Shown one piece after another: positions 15,218 to 34,400 of a stretch of DNA of 34,400 bases. Source of the stretch: Actinomycetes bacterium (GTDB lineage Bacteria; Actinomycetota; Actinomycetes; Nanopelagicales; Nanopelagicaceae); NCBI GenBank assembly GCA_025355665.1, contig JANXZF010000057.1, positions 1 to 34,400 on the forward strand, given 5' to 3'. Numbering within the stretch: the first letter of the stretch is position 1; each line of letters starts with the position of its first letter. A program made the position numbers and the translations under genes. The notes beneath the pieces were generated by a model that was given only the letters and a program-made list of their open reading frames with translations, was not told where the DNA came from and ran no database searches.

Positions 15218-15742
15218 ATGACTAAACATGAAGCTGTTTTGGGCCGATTCTTTGAAGATTATGTTGTTGGCGATACGTACGAACATCCCTTTGGAAGAAC
15301 TATTGGTGAAGCTGATAACACTTGGTTCACCTTGCTTACGTGCAATACAAATCAAAACCATTTTAACGTGGAGTTTGCAAAATCGAATCCAATTACTCAA
15401 GGTCGCGTGATTGTTAACTCTGGTCTCACGCTTGCGATGGTACTTGGTATTAGCGTCATGGACATGAGTCAGAACGCGGTTGCAAATTTGGGTTGGACCG
15501 ATATCAAACTTTCGTTTCCACTTTATGTAGGCGACACTTTGTACGCGGAATCAATTTGTTTGGATGCCAGGATTTCCAAATCTCGCGACAATGTCGGCAT
15601 CATCACAATGAAAACACGTGGCCTGAATCAAGATGGGGAAGAAGTCGCCTCCATGTTTCGAACCGTCATGATTGCAAAGCGAACATCCGGATTAGGGCGC
15701 GACTACTTTCCCAAGGCAAAAACTGGAGAATTGACCCTTTAA
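15218..15742 (+). CDS. MaoC family dehydratase
   Basis: GRFFEDYVVGDTYEHPFGRTIGEADNTWFTLLTCNTNQNHFNVEFAK..., hot-dog fold MaoC pattern. Confidence 0.9.
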   Translation: MTKHEAVLGRFFEDYVVGDTYEHPFGRTIGEADNTWFTLLTCNTNQNHFNVEFAKSNPITQGRVIVNSGLTLAMVLGISVMDMSQNAVANLGWTDIKLSFPLYVGDTLYAESICLDARISKSRDNVGIITMKTRGLNQDGEEVASMFRTVMIAKRTSGLGRDYFPKAKTGELTL

Positions 15743-16422
15743 TTTATTCCCGTAATTCGTATTCCGGCATGGGTTTTGTATCGTCGGTTCATCGAGATCA
15801 AGTTGGCCGTTAGGGCTTCGATTTGTCCGCAGTTCCGCATTTTCCCTGCGTATACGCCGCGCATTCCCTTAATCATGTCAATTAAGGATTGCACTAGATC
15901 GGTCGCCGCTTTGTCGTCACCGGCGACCATAATGTCGATTTCGACTTCATCTAGTGACGTATCTGAAAGCAAAACAGCGGATACGTGATTGAAAGCGGAT
16001 ACAACATGACTGTCTGTGAGAATCCCTTGCGCCTGCGCGCAAGCGCTCCCTTCAGGAACGTGAAGGGCAAAAGCGCCGCTCTTATCGAAGCCCAATGGAT
16101 TCACGCAATCTATGACAATTTTGTTAGTGAGGTGGATTTTTAGGGCCTCAACTGACTCTAGATGGCTTTCCCACGGCAAAGCCAGAATAACAACGTCGGC
16201 TTGCGCCGCGCATGTTGCATTATCGGTACCGCTCACGCCGTACCCGACTTCTTGTGCTGCAGAATCTGCCTTGGTGCTATCGCGTGAGCCGAGTATCACC
16301 GTGAAACCGGCCTTGGCCAATCTATATCCGAGGCCTTTACCTTGCGCGCCAGTTCCGCCGGCAATTCCAATCACGAGGTCATTGAGTTCTTTATTTCGGT
16401 ATTGGCCCGTTGTATCTAGCAT
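15739..16422 (-). CDS. npdG: NADPH-dependent F420 reductase (F420H2:NADP oxidoreductase)
   Basis: IGIAGGTGAQGKGLGYRLAKAGFTVILGSRDSTKA...VVILALPWESHLESVEAL...IVIDCVNPLGFDKSGAFALHVPEGSACAQAQGIL...VVSAFNHVSAVLL. Confidence 0.92.
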   Translation of the reverse strand: MLDTTGQYRNKELNDLVIGIAGGTGAQGKGLGYRLAKAGFTVILGSRDSTKADSAAQEVGYGVSGTDNATCAAQADVVILALPWESHLESVEALKIHLTNKIVIDCVNPLGFDKSGAFALHVPEGSACAQAQGILTDSHVVSAFNHVSAVLLSDTSLDEVEIDIMVAGDDKAATDLVQSLIDMIKGMRGVYAGKMRNCGQIEALTANLISMNRRYKTHAGIRITGIN

Positions 16423-16445
16423 GCGCGCATACTATAAGGATGAAC

Positions 16446-17081
16446 CTATTTTCGCATTCGGTGTTCCATTATCGATCGAGTTGCACGTCCAAGGGCTGAA
16501 AGTGGTATTTGCCCTAGGTCTGTAAAATCGTCGCAATCACGCATTATGCCCGCGAAAGCCGGGTGAGAGAGTTCTTTGGCGCCATTTTTCAAATGCTCGA
16601 GTGCGGAGTTAGGTCCAAATTGTGGGTTAAATGCGTTGGAGTTTGTTACGAAATAGATAGTAGTTCCTTTTCCCGAAAAATCGGGAATAAAGCTCTGCTC
16701 GTTCGCACTCGCGAGGTCAAGTGCTATTGCTAGCTCTGCACTGGTGATTGAGGGGAGATCGGGAAGTATCACTGAGATCTTATTGCTAGCCCCAATTGCC
16801 CGACGTACATCGTTGTTGATCCCAGTCATTTGGGTAAGCGGGAAGGATCGAATACGCAAATCGGGATTAGTCGTAACATCTAGGTGATGCAATCCTACGA
16901 TCGTGATCGAGCCAACATTGGAAAGTTGAAGGATCGCGTCAATCACATCATTGGCCATTGCTCTAATTAGCGACTTTCGCTCGTTATTGGGTAGACCTTG
17001 CAACCGGGATTTTCCCGTGACGAATTGTTTCAGCGGGAGGAATACATCCCAGTTGCCGACATCATTATCTACTGGGGACAC
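16446..17081 (-). CDS. cofC: 2-phospho-L-lactate (or PEP) guanylyltransferase CofC
   Basis: VFLPLKQFVTGKSRLQGLPNNERKSLIRAMANDVIDA, VILPDLPSITSAEL, FNPQFGPNSALEHL, GTG start; adjacent to cofD and cofE. Confidence 0.85.
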   Translation of the reverse strand: MSPVDNDVGNWDVFLPLKQFVTGKSRLQGLPNNERKSLIRAMANDVIDAILQLSNVGSITIVGLHHLDVTTNPDLRIRSFPLTQMTGINNDVRRAIGASNKISVILPDLPSITSAELAIALDLASANEQSFIPDFSGKGTTIYFVTNSNAFNPQFGPNSALEHLKNGAKELSHPAFAGIMRDCDDFTDLGQIPLSALGRATRSIMEHRMRK

Positions 17082-17083
17082 AG

Positions 17084-17093
17084 TATTATCGTA
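17084..17093. promoter_or_regulatory. Candidate bidirectional -10 element (TATTATCGTA) for leaderless cofC and cofD
   Basis: + strand TATTAT with 7 nt to the cofD ATG (17097); - strand TACGAT with 6 nt to the cofC GTG (17081). Confidence 0.5.
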
Positions 17094-17096
17094 CTC

Positions 17097-18080
17097 ATGA
17101 CGGCACCAATTCGGATTACAACTCTTGTAGGCGGGATTGGTGGAGCACGTTTTCTCAAGGGCCTACGGGTAAATCCAAACCTCGACATTTCGGTGATAGT
17201 AAATAGCGGCGATGACATCACGATGCATGGTTTGCGTGTTTGTCCAGACCTAGATTCGGTCCTGTACAACCTGGCCGGCGTTGCCGATCTTGATCGCGGT
17301 TGGGGTAGAGCCGATGAATCTTGGAGACTTCAAGATGAGTTGGCTGATTACCTTGGTGAGCGGCCGTGGTTCAATTTGGGGGATCAGGATTTTGCGTTAC
17401 ATATTTTTCGCACATATCTGTTGAATCAAGGAATTCCTCTTCACGAAATTGTTTTGAGGCAATGCGCTAGGTGGAACATTGCTGAAAAGATCTTGCCAAG
17501 TACAAATAATTTTGTAGAAACAAGAGTTCACCTTGAGGAGGCCCTCAACGGGGCAAGTTGGTTGCATTTCCAAGAATGGTGGGTTCGATACCACGCAGCG
17601 CCATTGGTGACGAGATTTCAATTGGAAGGTGCAGCAGAGGCGAAACCAGCCCCCGGCGTGCTGGATGCGATTGCGGAAGCGGACGTAATACTTTTTGCAC
17701 CTAGTAATCCAATAGTCTCAATCGGCACAATTTTGGAAATACCTGGAATCCGGGAAGCCTTGATTTCGACATCAGCGCCGATCGTTGGAATCTCACCGAT
17801 CATTGGGGATCATCCTGTTCTCGGTATGGCTGACAGATGTCTAATCTCACTCAAACTAGAAGCCAGTGCGACCTCGGTCGCAACGCTTTACGGTAGTCGA
17901 CGAGAAGGTGGATTGCTAGATGGCTGGTTGATTGCAGATTCAGATAACGGACAAGTGAATCAAATCGAAAAACTAGGAATTAGTTGTCTTGCGATCCCAC
18001 TTCTAATGAAGAATGAATTATTGACTCAAGACATGGCCGCGGCTGCAATCGCCATGGCGAAATCTGTGACAATCCGATGA
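17097..18080 (+). CDS. cofD: 2-phospho-L-lactate transferase CofD
   Basis: ITTLVGGIGGARFLKGL, VNSGDDITMHGLRVCPDLDSVLYNLAGVADLDRGWG, LGDQDFALHIFRTYLLNQGIPL, FAPSNPIVSIGTILEIPGIREAL. ATG at 17097 preferred over the ORF-track start 16998, which overlaps cofC. Confidence 0.95.
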   Translation: MTAPIRITTLVGGIGGARFLKGLRVNPNLDISVIVNSGDDITMHGLRVCPDLDSVLYNLAGVADLDRGWGRADESWRLQDELADYLGERPWFNLGDQDFALHIFRTYLLNQGIPLHEIVLRQCARWNIAEKILPSTNNFVETRVHLEEALNGASWLHFQEWWVRYHAAPLVTRFQLEGAAEAKPAPGVLDAIAEADVILFAPSNPIVSIGTILEIPGIREALISTSAPIVGISPIIGDHPVLGMADRCLISLKLEASATSVATLYGSRREGGLLDGWLIADSDNGQVNQIEKLGISCLAIPLLMKNELLTQDMAAAAIAMAKSVTIR

Positions 18081-18841
18081 CAAGCGAATTTAGCGTCCAC
18101 CCAATTAAGGGCATCCCTGAAATAGTTCCAGGCGATGATTTGGCCTCCATCATTTTGACGGCCGTAAGAAACGGACCGGGTCTAAAATCTTTTGACATTT
18201 TGGTTATTACGAGCAAGATAATTAGCAAAGCAGAGGGCCGAATCGTGCCAAGTTCTAGCCGCGACCAAATCATTGATGAAGAAACTGTTCGCATAGTTGC
18301 GGAGCGGGGAAAGACGAAGATTGTAGAGACCAGACATGGATTGATAATGGCTGCAGCAGGAGTAGATGCATCAAATGCTCCGAGTGGAATGGTTCTGAAG
18401 TTGCCAATTGATAGCGACCTTAGCGCGCGCCATTTGCGGAAGGAATTGTCTGCGACTTTTCACCCAATCGGCATAATCATTACTGACACGATGGGTCGGG
18501 CCTGGCGTTTGGGCCTCACGGACAACGCAATCGGTGTGGCGGGAGTTCAAACCTTGCTTGATTATCGCGGACAGACGGATGCTGCCGGCCGAACTCTTGA
18601 GCAGACGGTGGTTGCGGTTGCTGACGAGATTGCTAGTGCTGCCGAATTGGTCAAAGGCAAACTTGATGGGATCCCCGTCGTGCTTGTCCGCGGTCTGTCT
18701 CAATACATCACATCCGATGATGGACCAGGCGCCCACTCTATTATTCGCCCACTGGAGGAAGATATGTTCGCAATCGGAGCTGAGATGGCTCAACGTCGCG
18801 GATATTTGATGGGCTATAACGACGGCAAGCAAAGCGATTAA
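18077..18841 (+). CDS. cofE: Coenzyme F420:L-glutamate ligase CofE (single domain)
   Basis: VITSKIISKAEGRIV, HGLIMAAAGVDASNAPSGMVLKLPIDSD, IIITDTMGRAWRLGLTDNAIGVAGV; ATGA overlap with cofD. Confidence 0.93.
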   Translation: MTSEFSVHPIKGIPEIVPGDDLASIILTAVRNGPGLKSFDILVITSKIISKAEGRIVPSSSRDQIIDEETVRIVAERGKTKIVETRHGLIMAAAGVDASNAPSGMVLKLPIDSDLSARHLRKELSATFHPIGIIITDTMGRAWRLGLTDNAIGVAGVQTLLDYRGQTDAAGRTLEQTVVAVADEIASAAELVKGKLDGIPVVLVRGLSQYITSDDGPGAHSIIRPLEEDMFAIGAEMAQRRGYLMGYNDGKQSD

Positions 18842-32946: not shown

Positions 32947-33522
32947 TTACTGGCAGGTGCTTGATTGACTTGTTACTTTTGTCGCTGATTGAGTTGCACG
33001 CGCAATCAAGATTCGAGATTGACCAGTATTTAGTTGGCTATAAGATGAATCCATAAGCGTCTGAATTTGGGTTGGGGCAGAAGATCTAAAGGATGAATAC
33101 TGCGCACCGTACGAAACCGTCTGATAACTAATCGAGTCAGCAGTTGGTTGAATCCAAACAGGGGACGAAAATCCAGTGCAGGCGATCGTCTTAGGTGCAG
33201 CACTTTCTGCAACTAGCTTGTGCATTGCACTGCAAGTGAACCATGTGTAGAGACCTGGGCTGCCTGCGCGAACGCCTTCACCAAAAACCACCGAATGGCA
33301 ATACAAGTTGCTGCCAGCGGTATTTGAGAAATTAGATTTCCAATTCTTGCTGAGCTCTAATTCTGTTGTAACTGTTTTAACGAATTTTGTAATTTGTGTT
33401 TGCGAGAAATGAACGGTACTTGCGTCGCCAGTTGCAGCGTATGAAGTTTCGGTCAGGAGCACTACGGCGACAAACAAGGCGGCCTTGAGGACTGAACTCC
33501 TCTTAAGACGCTTTGCCATCAT
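32947..33522 (-). CDS. Predicted secreted protein of unknown function
   Basis: Likely start MMAKRLKRSSVLKAALFVAVVLLTETSYAATG (signal peptide); mature region has four Cys. ORF track starts at 33582. Confidence 0.6.
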   Translation of the reverse strand: MMAKRLKRSSVLKAALFVAVVLLTETSYAATGDASTVHFSQTQITKFVKTVTTELELSKNWKSNFSNTAGSNLYCHSVVFGEGVRAGSPGLYTWFTCSAMHKLVAESAAPKTIACTGFSSPVWIQPTADSISYQTVSYGAQYSSFRSSAPTQIQTLMDSSYSQLNTGQSRILIARATQSATKVTSQSSTCQ

Positions 33523-33651
33523 CTGCACCCTTACTCGGTTCTGGCCGTTACGGGTTGAGTGTGGACGTTTGAAGATGTGCAATGAAATGAGTGAAGAGGG
33601 GAAGCACTTCTGGAAACGTACGAAATCATTCGTCCGCGTTCCTTCTCATCC

Positions 33652-33729: not shown

Positions 33730-33876
33730 TTAGCAGCAAGAATTAGCGCCTGGGATCGTCAAAAGCGTGAATGACGTTCCGCCGGAGATTGTGCTCTTCC
33801 TTGGTGCGGCGTTTGCCGGAAGCGCGGTCGTAACAACTAATACGACTGCGATTAAGGTCAGTCCGATTTGCTTCAC
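33730..33876 (-). CDS. Small predicted secreted peptide (48 aa), not in the ORF track; possible peptide signal
   Basis: Manual reverse-strand translation from GTG with RBS TTGGAGGA: MKQIGLTLIAVVLVVTTALPANAAPRKSTISGGTSFTLLTIPGANSCC*. Positively charged start, hydrophobic core and ANA/A cleavage-like site, Cys-Cys C-terminus. Confidence 0.6.
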   Translation of the reverse strand: MKQIGLTLIAVVLVVTTALPANAAPRKSTISGGTSFTLLTIPGANSCC

Positions 33877-33891
33877 AGTATCCTCCAAATG

Positions 33892-33910
33892 TCTTTACTA
33901 TTTGTAAAGA
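33892..33910. promoter_or_regulatory. Inverted repeat TCTTTAC-TATTT-GTAAAGA in the divergent peptide/regulator promoter
   Basis: 7-bp perfect arms with a 5-nt spacer, overlapping a plausible + strand promoter (TTTACT - 18 bp - TAAGAT). Confidence 0.55.
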
Positions 33911-33954
33911 TTAGTTGTAAGATATACCAAAGTCGTCAAGAAGGGAAGTGGGTT

Positions 33955-34400
33955 ATGGAGTTTGGAGAGAAGCTCCGAACGCTGAGGGAGAAAGCCGGTC
34001 TAACTCAGTATGAGCTTGCCGAGGGCATAGCTGCCTCCAGTTTCATATCCCTGCTAGAGGGGGGTAAACGCAAGCCTAAGCCTGAGTTGGTCGTCAAATT
34101 AGCGGCAAGGTTGGGCGTGCCCACGGAGGATCTGGTGATCGACCAGAGCGCCCAAGAGCGCGAACTCAATCTCAATACCGCCAAGGTCGCCCTGAGTTCT
34201 GGAGATCTCGAAATCGCGGAGGATTTTGCGAAGCAGGTCTTAATGTTCGGTCCTGAGGGCATCCAAGATATGGCTTCGCTGGCCGCTTCGGTGGTTTTGC
34301 TTCAGATCAATGCGCGTAGGGGTCTTTTCGAGGGTGTTCTGGATCAATTGGAACAGCTCTTGAAAGATAATCCAAAGGCGGCCCCTGAGTTGAGGTCTCG
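33955..34400 (+). CDS. XRE-family HTH regulator with probable TPR-like C-terminal region (partial, runs off right edge)
   Basis: Manual translation: MEFGEKLRTLREKAGLTQYELAEGIAASSFISLLEGGKRKPKPELVVKLAARLGVPTEDLVIDQSAQERELNLNTAKVALSSGDLEIAEDFAKQVLMFGPEGIQDMASLAASVVLLQINARRGLFEGVLDQLEQLLKDNPKAAPELRS.... HTH plus helical-pair pattern typical of TPR proteins. Confidence 0.85.
   Translation, partial: MEFGEKLRTLREKAGLTQYELAEGIAASSFISLLEGGKRKPKPELVVKLAARLGVPTEDLVIDQSAQERELNLNTAKVALSSGDLEIAEDFAKQVLMFGPEGIQDMASLAASVVLLQINARRGLFEGVLDQLEQLLKDNPKAAPELRS

Follow-up and report, generated by a model that had tools for sequence, protein, structure and literature searches.

The window, that is, the whole stretch of DNA analysed, is the full 34,400-nt contig JANXZF010000057.1 (GenBank assembly GCA_025355665.1) of a freshwater actinobacterium belonging to the Nanopelagicaceae. 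Near its end, a 48-codon gene for a peptide precursor was delimited on the minus strand (33730..33876; GTG at 33876, stop at 33730) on the basis of sequence, conservation in orthologues and pN/pS. It is preceded by a Shine-Dalgarno sequence, GGAGG (33883..33887, minus strand), which reads GGAGG or AGGGAG in the relatives. The product consists of a signal part, VKQIGLTLIAVVLVVTTALPANA (residues 1–23, ALPANA), and a 25-aa tail, APRKSTISGGTSFTLLTIPGANSCC, with IPGANSCC as the C-terminus. Divergent from this gene and 78 bp away, the ATG at 33955 opens an ORF for the N-terminal 148 codons of an XRE-HTH plus TPR regulator (33955..34400, plus strand), which is incomplete as the contig and the window end together. 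These observations confirmed what had been read from the sequence alone, namely a 48-codon ORF with a ribosome-binding site (RBS) and a Sec-type N-terminus, divergent from an XRE regulator truncated by the window.

Codirectional with the peptide gene, a signal-bearing protein of about 190 aa is encoded at 32947..33531 (minus strand); it had no Pfam match, is of unassigned family and is kept at the same place in the window's clade (L063–L068). It may be a target or an operon partner of the pair. Elsewhere in the window (15739–18841), ORFs reading by eye as CofC-, CofD- and CofE-like F420 cofactor genes and an F420-dependent NADP reductase were noticed, with LLM-type oxidoreductases, also named by eye, nearby.

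The precursor gene, the regulator and the palindrome between them

Orthologues were sought by using the regulator fragment as query against 201 family genomes, a clear orthologue being defined as HTH plus TPR with E<1e-15. This yielded 15 loci (window included), indicating that the pair is patchy. Absence of the small ORF beside orthologues and lack of codon-level purifying selection had been named beforehand as grounds for refutation. A divergent, signal-bearing small ORF with a Cys-Cys tail was present beside 15/15 orthologous regulators, about 75–160 bp away, each having a start codon, an RBS and a Sec-type N-terminus. Comparison of the window's peptide gene with its closest orthologue (L068) gave a pN/pS of 0.24 (pS 0.54, pN 0.13; Fisher p=9e-7), which indicates that this gene is under purifying selection at the codon level; the pooled value was 0.40 over 17 pairs, and individual close pairs having few synonymous changes gave values around or above 1.

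In the 15 family precursors, the Cys-Cys was located at the C-terminal end or no more than 5 residues from it. Their alignment revealed that, outside the signal, only one Gly and the Cys-Cys are invariant, with the spacing Gx3CC, and that the central part of the tail differs between precursors in both length and sequence, which is also the case in known pheromone precursors. A K/R n-region, a hydrophobic core and an AxA site were clear in most precursors upon motif inspection, and the cleavage site proposed from the window sequence agreed with the conserved AxA motif. Judged by these motifs, the precursor is probably exported by Sec. The peptides had no matching family model in Pfam or NCBIfam.

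Examination of the region between the two genes revealed a palindrome with perfect 6-bp arms, CTTTACTATTTGTAAAG (33893..33909), for which shuffles gave 0 occurrences expected by chance. Six same-genus genomes carry the exact palindrome; in five of them (G000, G148, G100, G070 and G106) it occurs once, always lying between the peptide and regulator genes. The site was aligned in nine loci, and the sister clade retains it with small changes. It may be regarded as a candidate operator. In the sixth genome, G003, two further tandem copies were noticed about 183 kb away (L184 5130–5290; G003:C2, ~891.1 kb), preceding a 25-codon ORF, MKKLTALVLTGAFLTVISAAPSGTA, that resembles the signal part of a second peptide gene, in the manner of a truncated CC-peptide precursor. 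They also precede a FliA/WhiG-like sigma factor that lies in a flagellar locus beside hook-type and csrA/fliW-like genes (names by eye), so that a link of the peptide system to motility is possible. Use of the palindrome with up to 3 mismatches as a regulon finder was dropped, the match rate being near that of the control.

Complete orthologues of the regulator in the window's clade are 432–434 aa long, and Pfam HTH_3 and TPR_12 were detected in 36/36 regulator relatives. The AlphaFold2 model of the regulator of L068, the closest orthologue (mean pLDDT 91), has an HTH at the N-terminus and, after it, about nine helical (TPR) hairpins. Its top bacterial PDB fold matches were RapJ-CSF (the best), PlcR-PapR, RapI and Rap of phage Phi3T, the remaining top matches being eukaryotic or designed TPR proteins; the TM-scores were moderate (0.4–0.6 on the query), values to be expected of a flexible superhelix. 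The TPR-like C-terminus suspected from the truncated copy, the lack of which had also been named as a ground for refutation, is thus seen in the complete orthologues, by TPR_12, by the model and by its RapJ, PlcR and RapI fold neighbours. In a profile search, PlcR was the best natural PDB match over HTH plus TPR (E 6.5e-16) among the 60 matches listed, a similarity that could reflect a separate HTH plus TPR fusion. Rgg or ComR chains were absent among these 60 matches, and a search for phage copies in INPHARED found no full-length relative. It was also noticed that two regulator paralogues of 371–374 aa, L031 (G000:C64, 17.6–18.7 kb) and L032 (G148:C49), are TPR-only proteins without the HTH, Rap-like in architecture, and have no CC peptide adjoining them.

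Spread across Actinomycetota and neighbouring genes

When the regulator alignment was used to scan GTDB genomes, 80 loci were recovered; Streptomyces accounts for many of them, and Kitasatospora, Streptacidiphilus, Umezawaea, Kineosporia, Nonomuraea and Thermoactinospora are also represented. Adjacent CC ORFs were defined as lying within 900 bp of the regulator and having 25–100 codons, an RBS, a hydrophobic N-terminus and a C-terminal CC; such signal-bearing ORFs were present at 51 of the 80 loci, and a relaxed scan added four more CC-peptide loci. Their density beside regulators was 0.349/kb, compared with 0.0089/kb in far flanks totalling 562 kb, an enrichment of about 40-fold among loci that are related, and the p-values therefore overstate the certainty and should not be read at face value. 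When only ORFs with CC as their last two residues were counted, there were 37 beside regulators versus 1 in the far flanks, and each of the other terminal dipeptides occurred 0–3 times. A chance ORF was ruled out as an explanation of the peptide gene because of the conservation, selection and enrichment of the small ORF.

When mapped onto a 105-regulator tree, the CC-peptide label required 8 changes versus 35 in shuffles and was found on several deep branches. Gene order varied by branch, being mostly divergent upstream and otherwise downstream convergent or codirectional, and precursor length ranged from 32 to 79 aa (47 examples). In the Actinomadura/Actinoallomurus regulator branch, no CC peptide was found, the relaxed scan included, and the Actinomadura branch had no consistent peptide of another kind. 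Most of the more distant XRE-TPR paralogues, of the YVSTIEAGR type, were without an adjacent CC peptide; the exceptions, L165 and L167, come from another class and have a regulator of a second, distant type (YTHAHVSTIEAGR), and their divergent precursors are 32–33 aa long and end in PHCC or PGCCG. A copy of the pair is also borne by a plasmid of Streptomyces goshikiensis, in which the peptide is annotated as a hypothetical protein.

In the Streptomyces branch with tails like SGGCC, about 20 loci have genes of an Opp-type importer no more than 6 kb from the pair. These genes lie upstream, adjoining the peptide gene, and encode SBP_bac_5, BPD_transp_1 and ABC_tran with oligo_HPY proteins (roughly -6 to -0.4 kb relative to the regulator; L074, L083, L088, L094 and L102 are among the loci). 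A BTAD SARP activator was found near the pair in the IPLCC branch, Nonomuraea and Thermoactinospora. Neither Opp nor SARP genes adjoin the pair in the clade of the window itself; the window's genome (G000) encodes three SBP_bac_5 proteins elsewhere, and import of the peptide is therefore possible there. In Streptacidiphilus (L110 and L118), a second XRE-TPR regulator was noticed beside the first, about 1.5–3.1 kb after the regulator start, together with an SBP_bac_5 protein adjoining the peptide gene. Across the loci, no recurrent modification/maturation, immunity or export gene was found among the conserved neighbours. The sequence-only reading did not extend to the invariance of the Cys-Cys tail, to the conservation of the palindrome, to the spread over the phylum or to the Opp and SARP genes near the pair.

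Comparison with known peptide-receptor systems and rival explanations

The operational signature of RRNPP systems comprises a Sec-exported precursor of 10–100 aa and a receptor of 250–500 aa with TPRs, their genes lying -60 to 400 bp apart (PMC10075063). The precursor has 48 aa in the window and 32–79 aa over the 47 examples, within the 10–100 aa of PMC10075063; complete orthologues of the receptor (432–434 aa; window copy incomplete) fall within its 250–500 aa; the TPRs that it calls for are present by TPR_12 in 36/36 relatives and by the AF2 model; and the 78 bp between the genes lies within its -60 to 400 bp. The orthologues thus show the published signature (PMC10075063) in precursor size, receptor size, TPRs and gene spacing, Sec export being read from motifs only, and the earlier suggestion of an RRNPP-like actinobacterial analogue is supported to this extent. 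By its way of working, the pair would be grouped with RRNPP, whatever its descent relative to the known RRNPPA subfamilies (PlcR, Rap, NprR, Rgg, ComR, PrgX and AimR).

PlcR-PapR of the Bacillus cereus group, which the pair resembles, combines a cytoplasmic regulator of XRE HTH plus TPR type with an adjacent short precursor exported by Sec; the pair described here has a longer TPR region (about nine repeats), divergent genes and a Cys-Cys tail, and occurs in Actinomycetota instead of Firmicutes. In Rap-Phr and NprR-NprX, about nine TPRs, the number also seen here, bind a re-imported C-terminal peptide (PMC9765709), but the peptide tail differs from Cys-Cys. Rap lacks an HTH and contains a three-helix bundle, and the helices listed for the L068 model include no evident extra bundle of this kind. 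Rgg-SHP and ComR-XIP resemble the pair in having a short precursor with a conserved double-residue signature near the C-terminus, which in XIP is Trp-Trp. SHP precursors are exported via PptAB, not Sec (PMC10075063), whereas the precursors here are Sec-type as judged by motif. The NsdA-family TPR regulators of Streptomyces (NCBIfam NF053720) showed weak profile similarity to 30/36 regulators, member 1 reaching 36 bits, below the cut-off of 75.

It is improbable that the CC peptide is itself an effector, such as a small secreted antimicrobial or a metal- or redox-active peptide, with the HTH-TPR protein merely repressing it and sensing something else. A palindrome at the start of a divergently transcribed gene suits simple repression, and the two Cys could coordinate a metal or be joined as a vicinal disulfide; however, the body is very short and variable with only the tail conserved, recurrent modification, immunity or export genes were not found near the pair, oligopeptide importers are close by in many loci, and the receptor fold is closest to that of peptide receptors. 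Other ligands too are bound by TPR-HTH proteins, and this counts against reading the regulator as a peptide receptor, as do the lack of a CC peptide in the Actinomadura/Actinoallomurus branch, the patchiness of the pair in the family and the lack of adjacent Opp or SARP genes in the window's clade. The lack of a recurrent maturation enzyme among the conserved neighbours, together with a leader that is a Sec-type signal, makes it very doubtful that the precursor is that of a RiPP, with a Cys-Cys tail enzymatically modified to give a signal or antibiotic, although a leader with a short core and conserved C-terminal Cys, and SARP genes near some loci, would fit.

An XRE regulator adjoining a small hydrophobic ORF, with weak HipB-like HTH scores, recalls a toxin-antitoxin-like pair in which a small hydrophobic membrane peptide is under an XRE antitoxin. 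This is most unlikely, as an n-region with K/R, a hydrophobic core and a polar tail after the AxA site point to export and not to membrane residence, the TPR domain has about 370 aa, the C-terminal CC is invariant, and several gene orders occur, downstream convergent among them. None of these rivals explains the importers, the TPR fold and the tail-only conservation jointly. An exported precursor, an oligopeptide importer, an HTH-TPR protein with the fold of peptide receptors and a palindrome together make up the RRNPP parts list, and an RRNPP-like reading is therefore the most likely; we consider it probable that a secreted and re-imported peptide ending in Cys-Cys binds the TPR domain of the regulator.

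Proposed mode of action and implications

In such an RRNPP-like pair, the precursor would be exported by Sec and cleaved by signal peptidase after AxA, and further proteolysis would release a short C-terminal peptide ending in Cys-Cys. An oligopeptide ABC importer would return this peptide to the cytoplasm, where it would bind the concave face of the HTH-TPR regulator and alter its action at the CTTTACnnnnnGTAAAG palindrome between the divergent genes. Since this site lies between both genes, the pair is proposed to be autoregulated. In other genera, the pair may also control neighbours, e.g. SARP activators. We lean, though only slightly, towards a wider view in which the invariant C-terminal Cys-Cys is the common ending of an undescribed, phylum-wide peptide language of Actinomycetota read by HTH-TPR receptors. 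In Streptomyces, this language would be wired to dedicated oligopeptide importers and to SARP activators of antibiotic production, and the dithiol, whether free, in a disulfide or metal-bound, might serve as a chemical gate on the signal.

The RRNPP survey covered Firmicutes and viruses, and Actinomycetota were described as typically using small molecules (PMC10075063). No actinobacterial RRNPP case or CC peptide was found in the open-licence literature, and a description may exist elsewhere. These results suggest a peptide-signalling system with a Cys-Cys signature across Actinomycetota that is undescribed in the open-licence literature. Peptide signals whose readers are cytoplasmic TPR receptors are known from Firmicutes and the mobile elements of these bacteria, and the pair would add this signalling class to the main antibiotic producers. 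If true, short CC-ended peptides would be candidate inducers of silent SARP-controlled clusters. To our knowledge, the imported peptide signals in Streptomyces development have long been missing, and the CC peptides would then be candidates for them.
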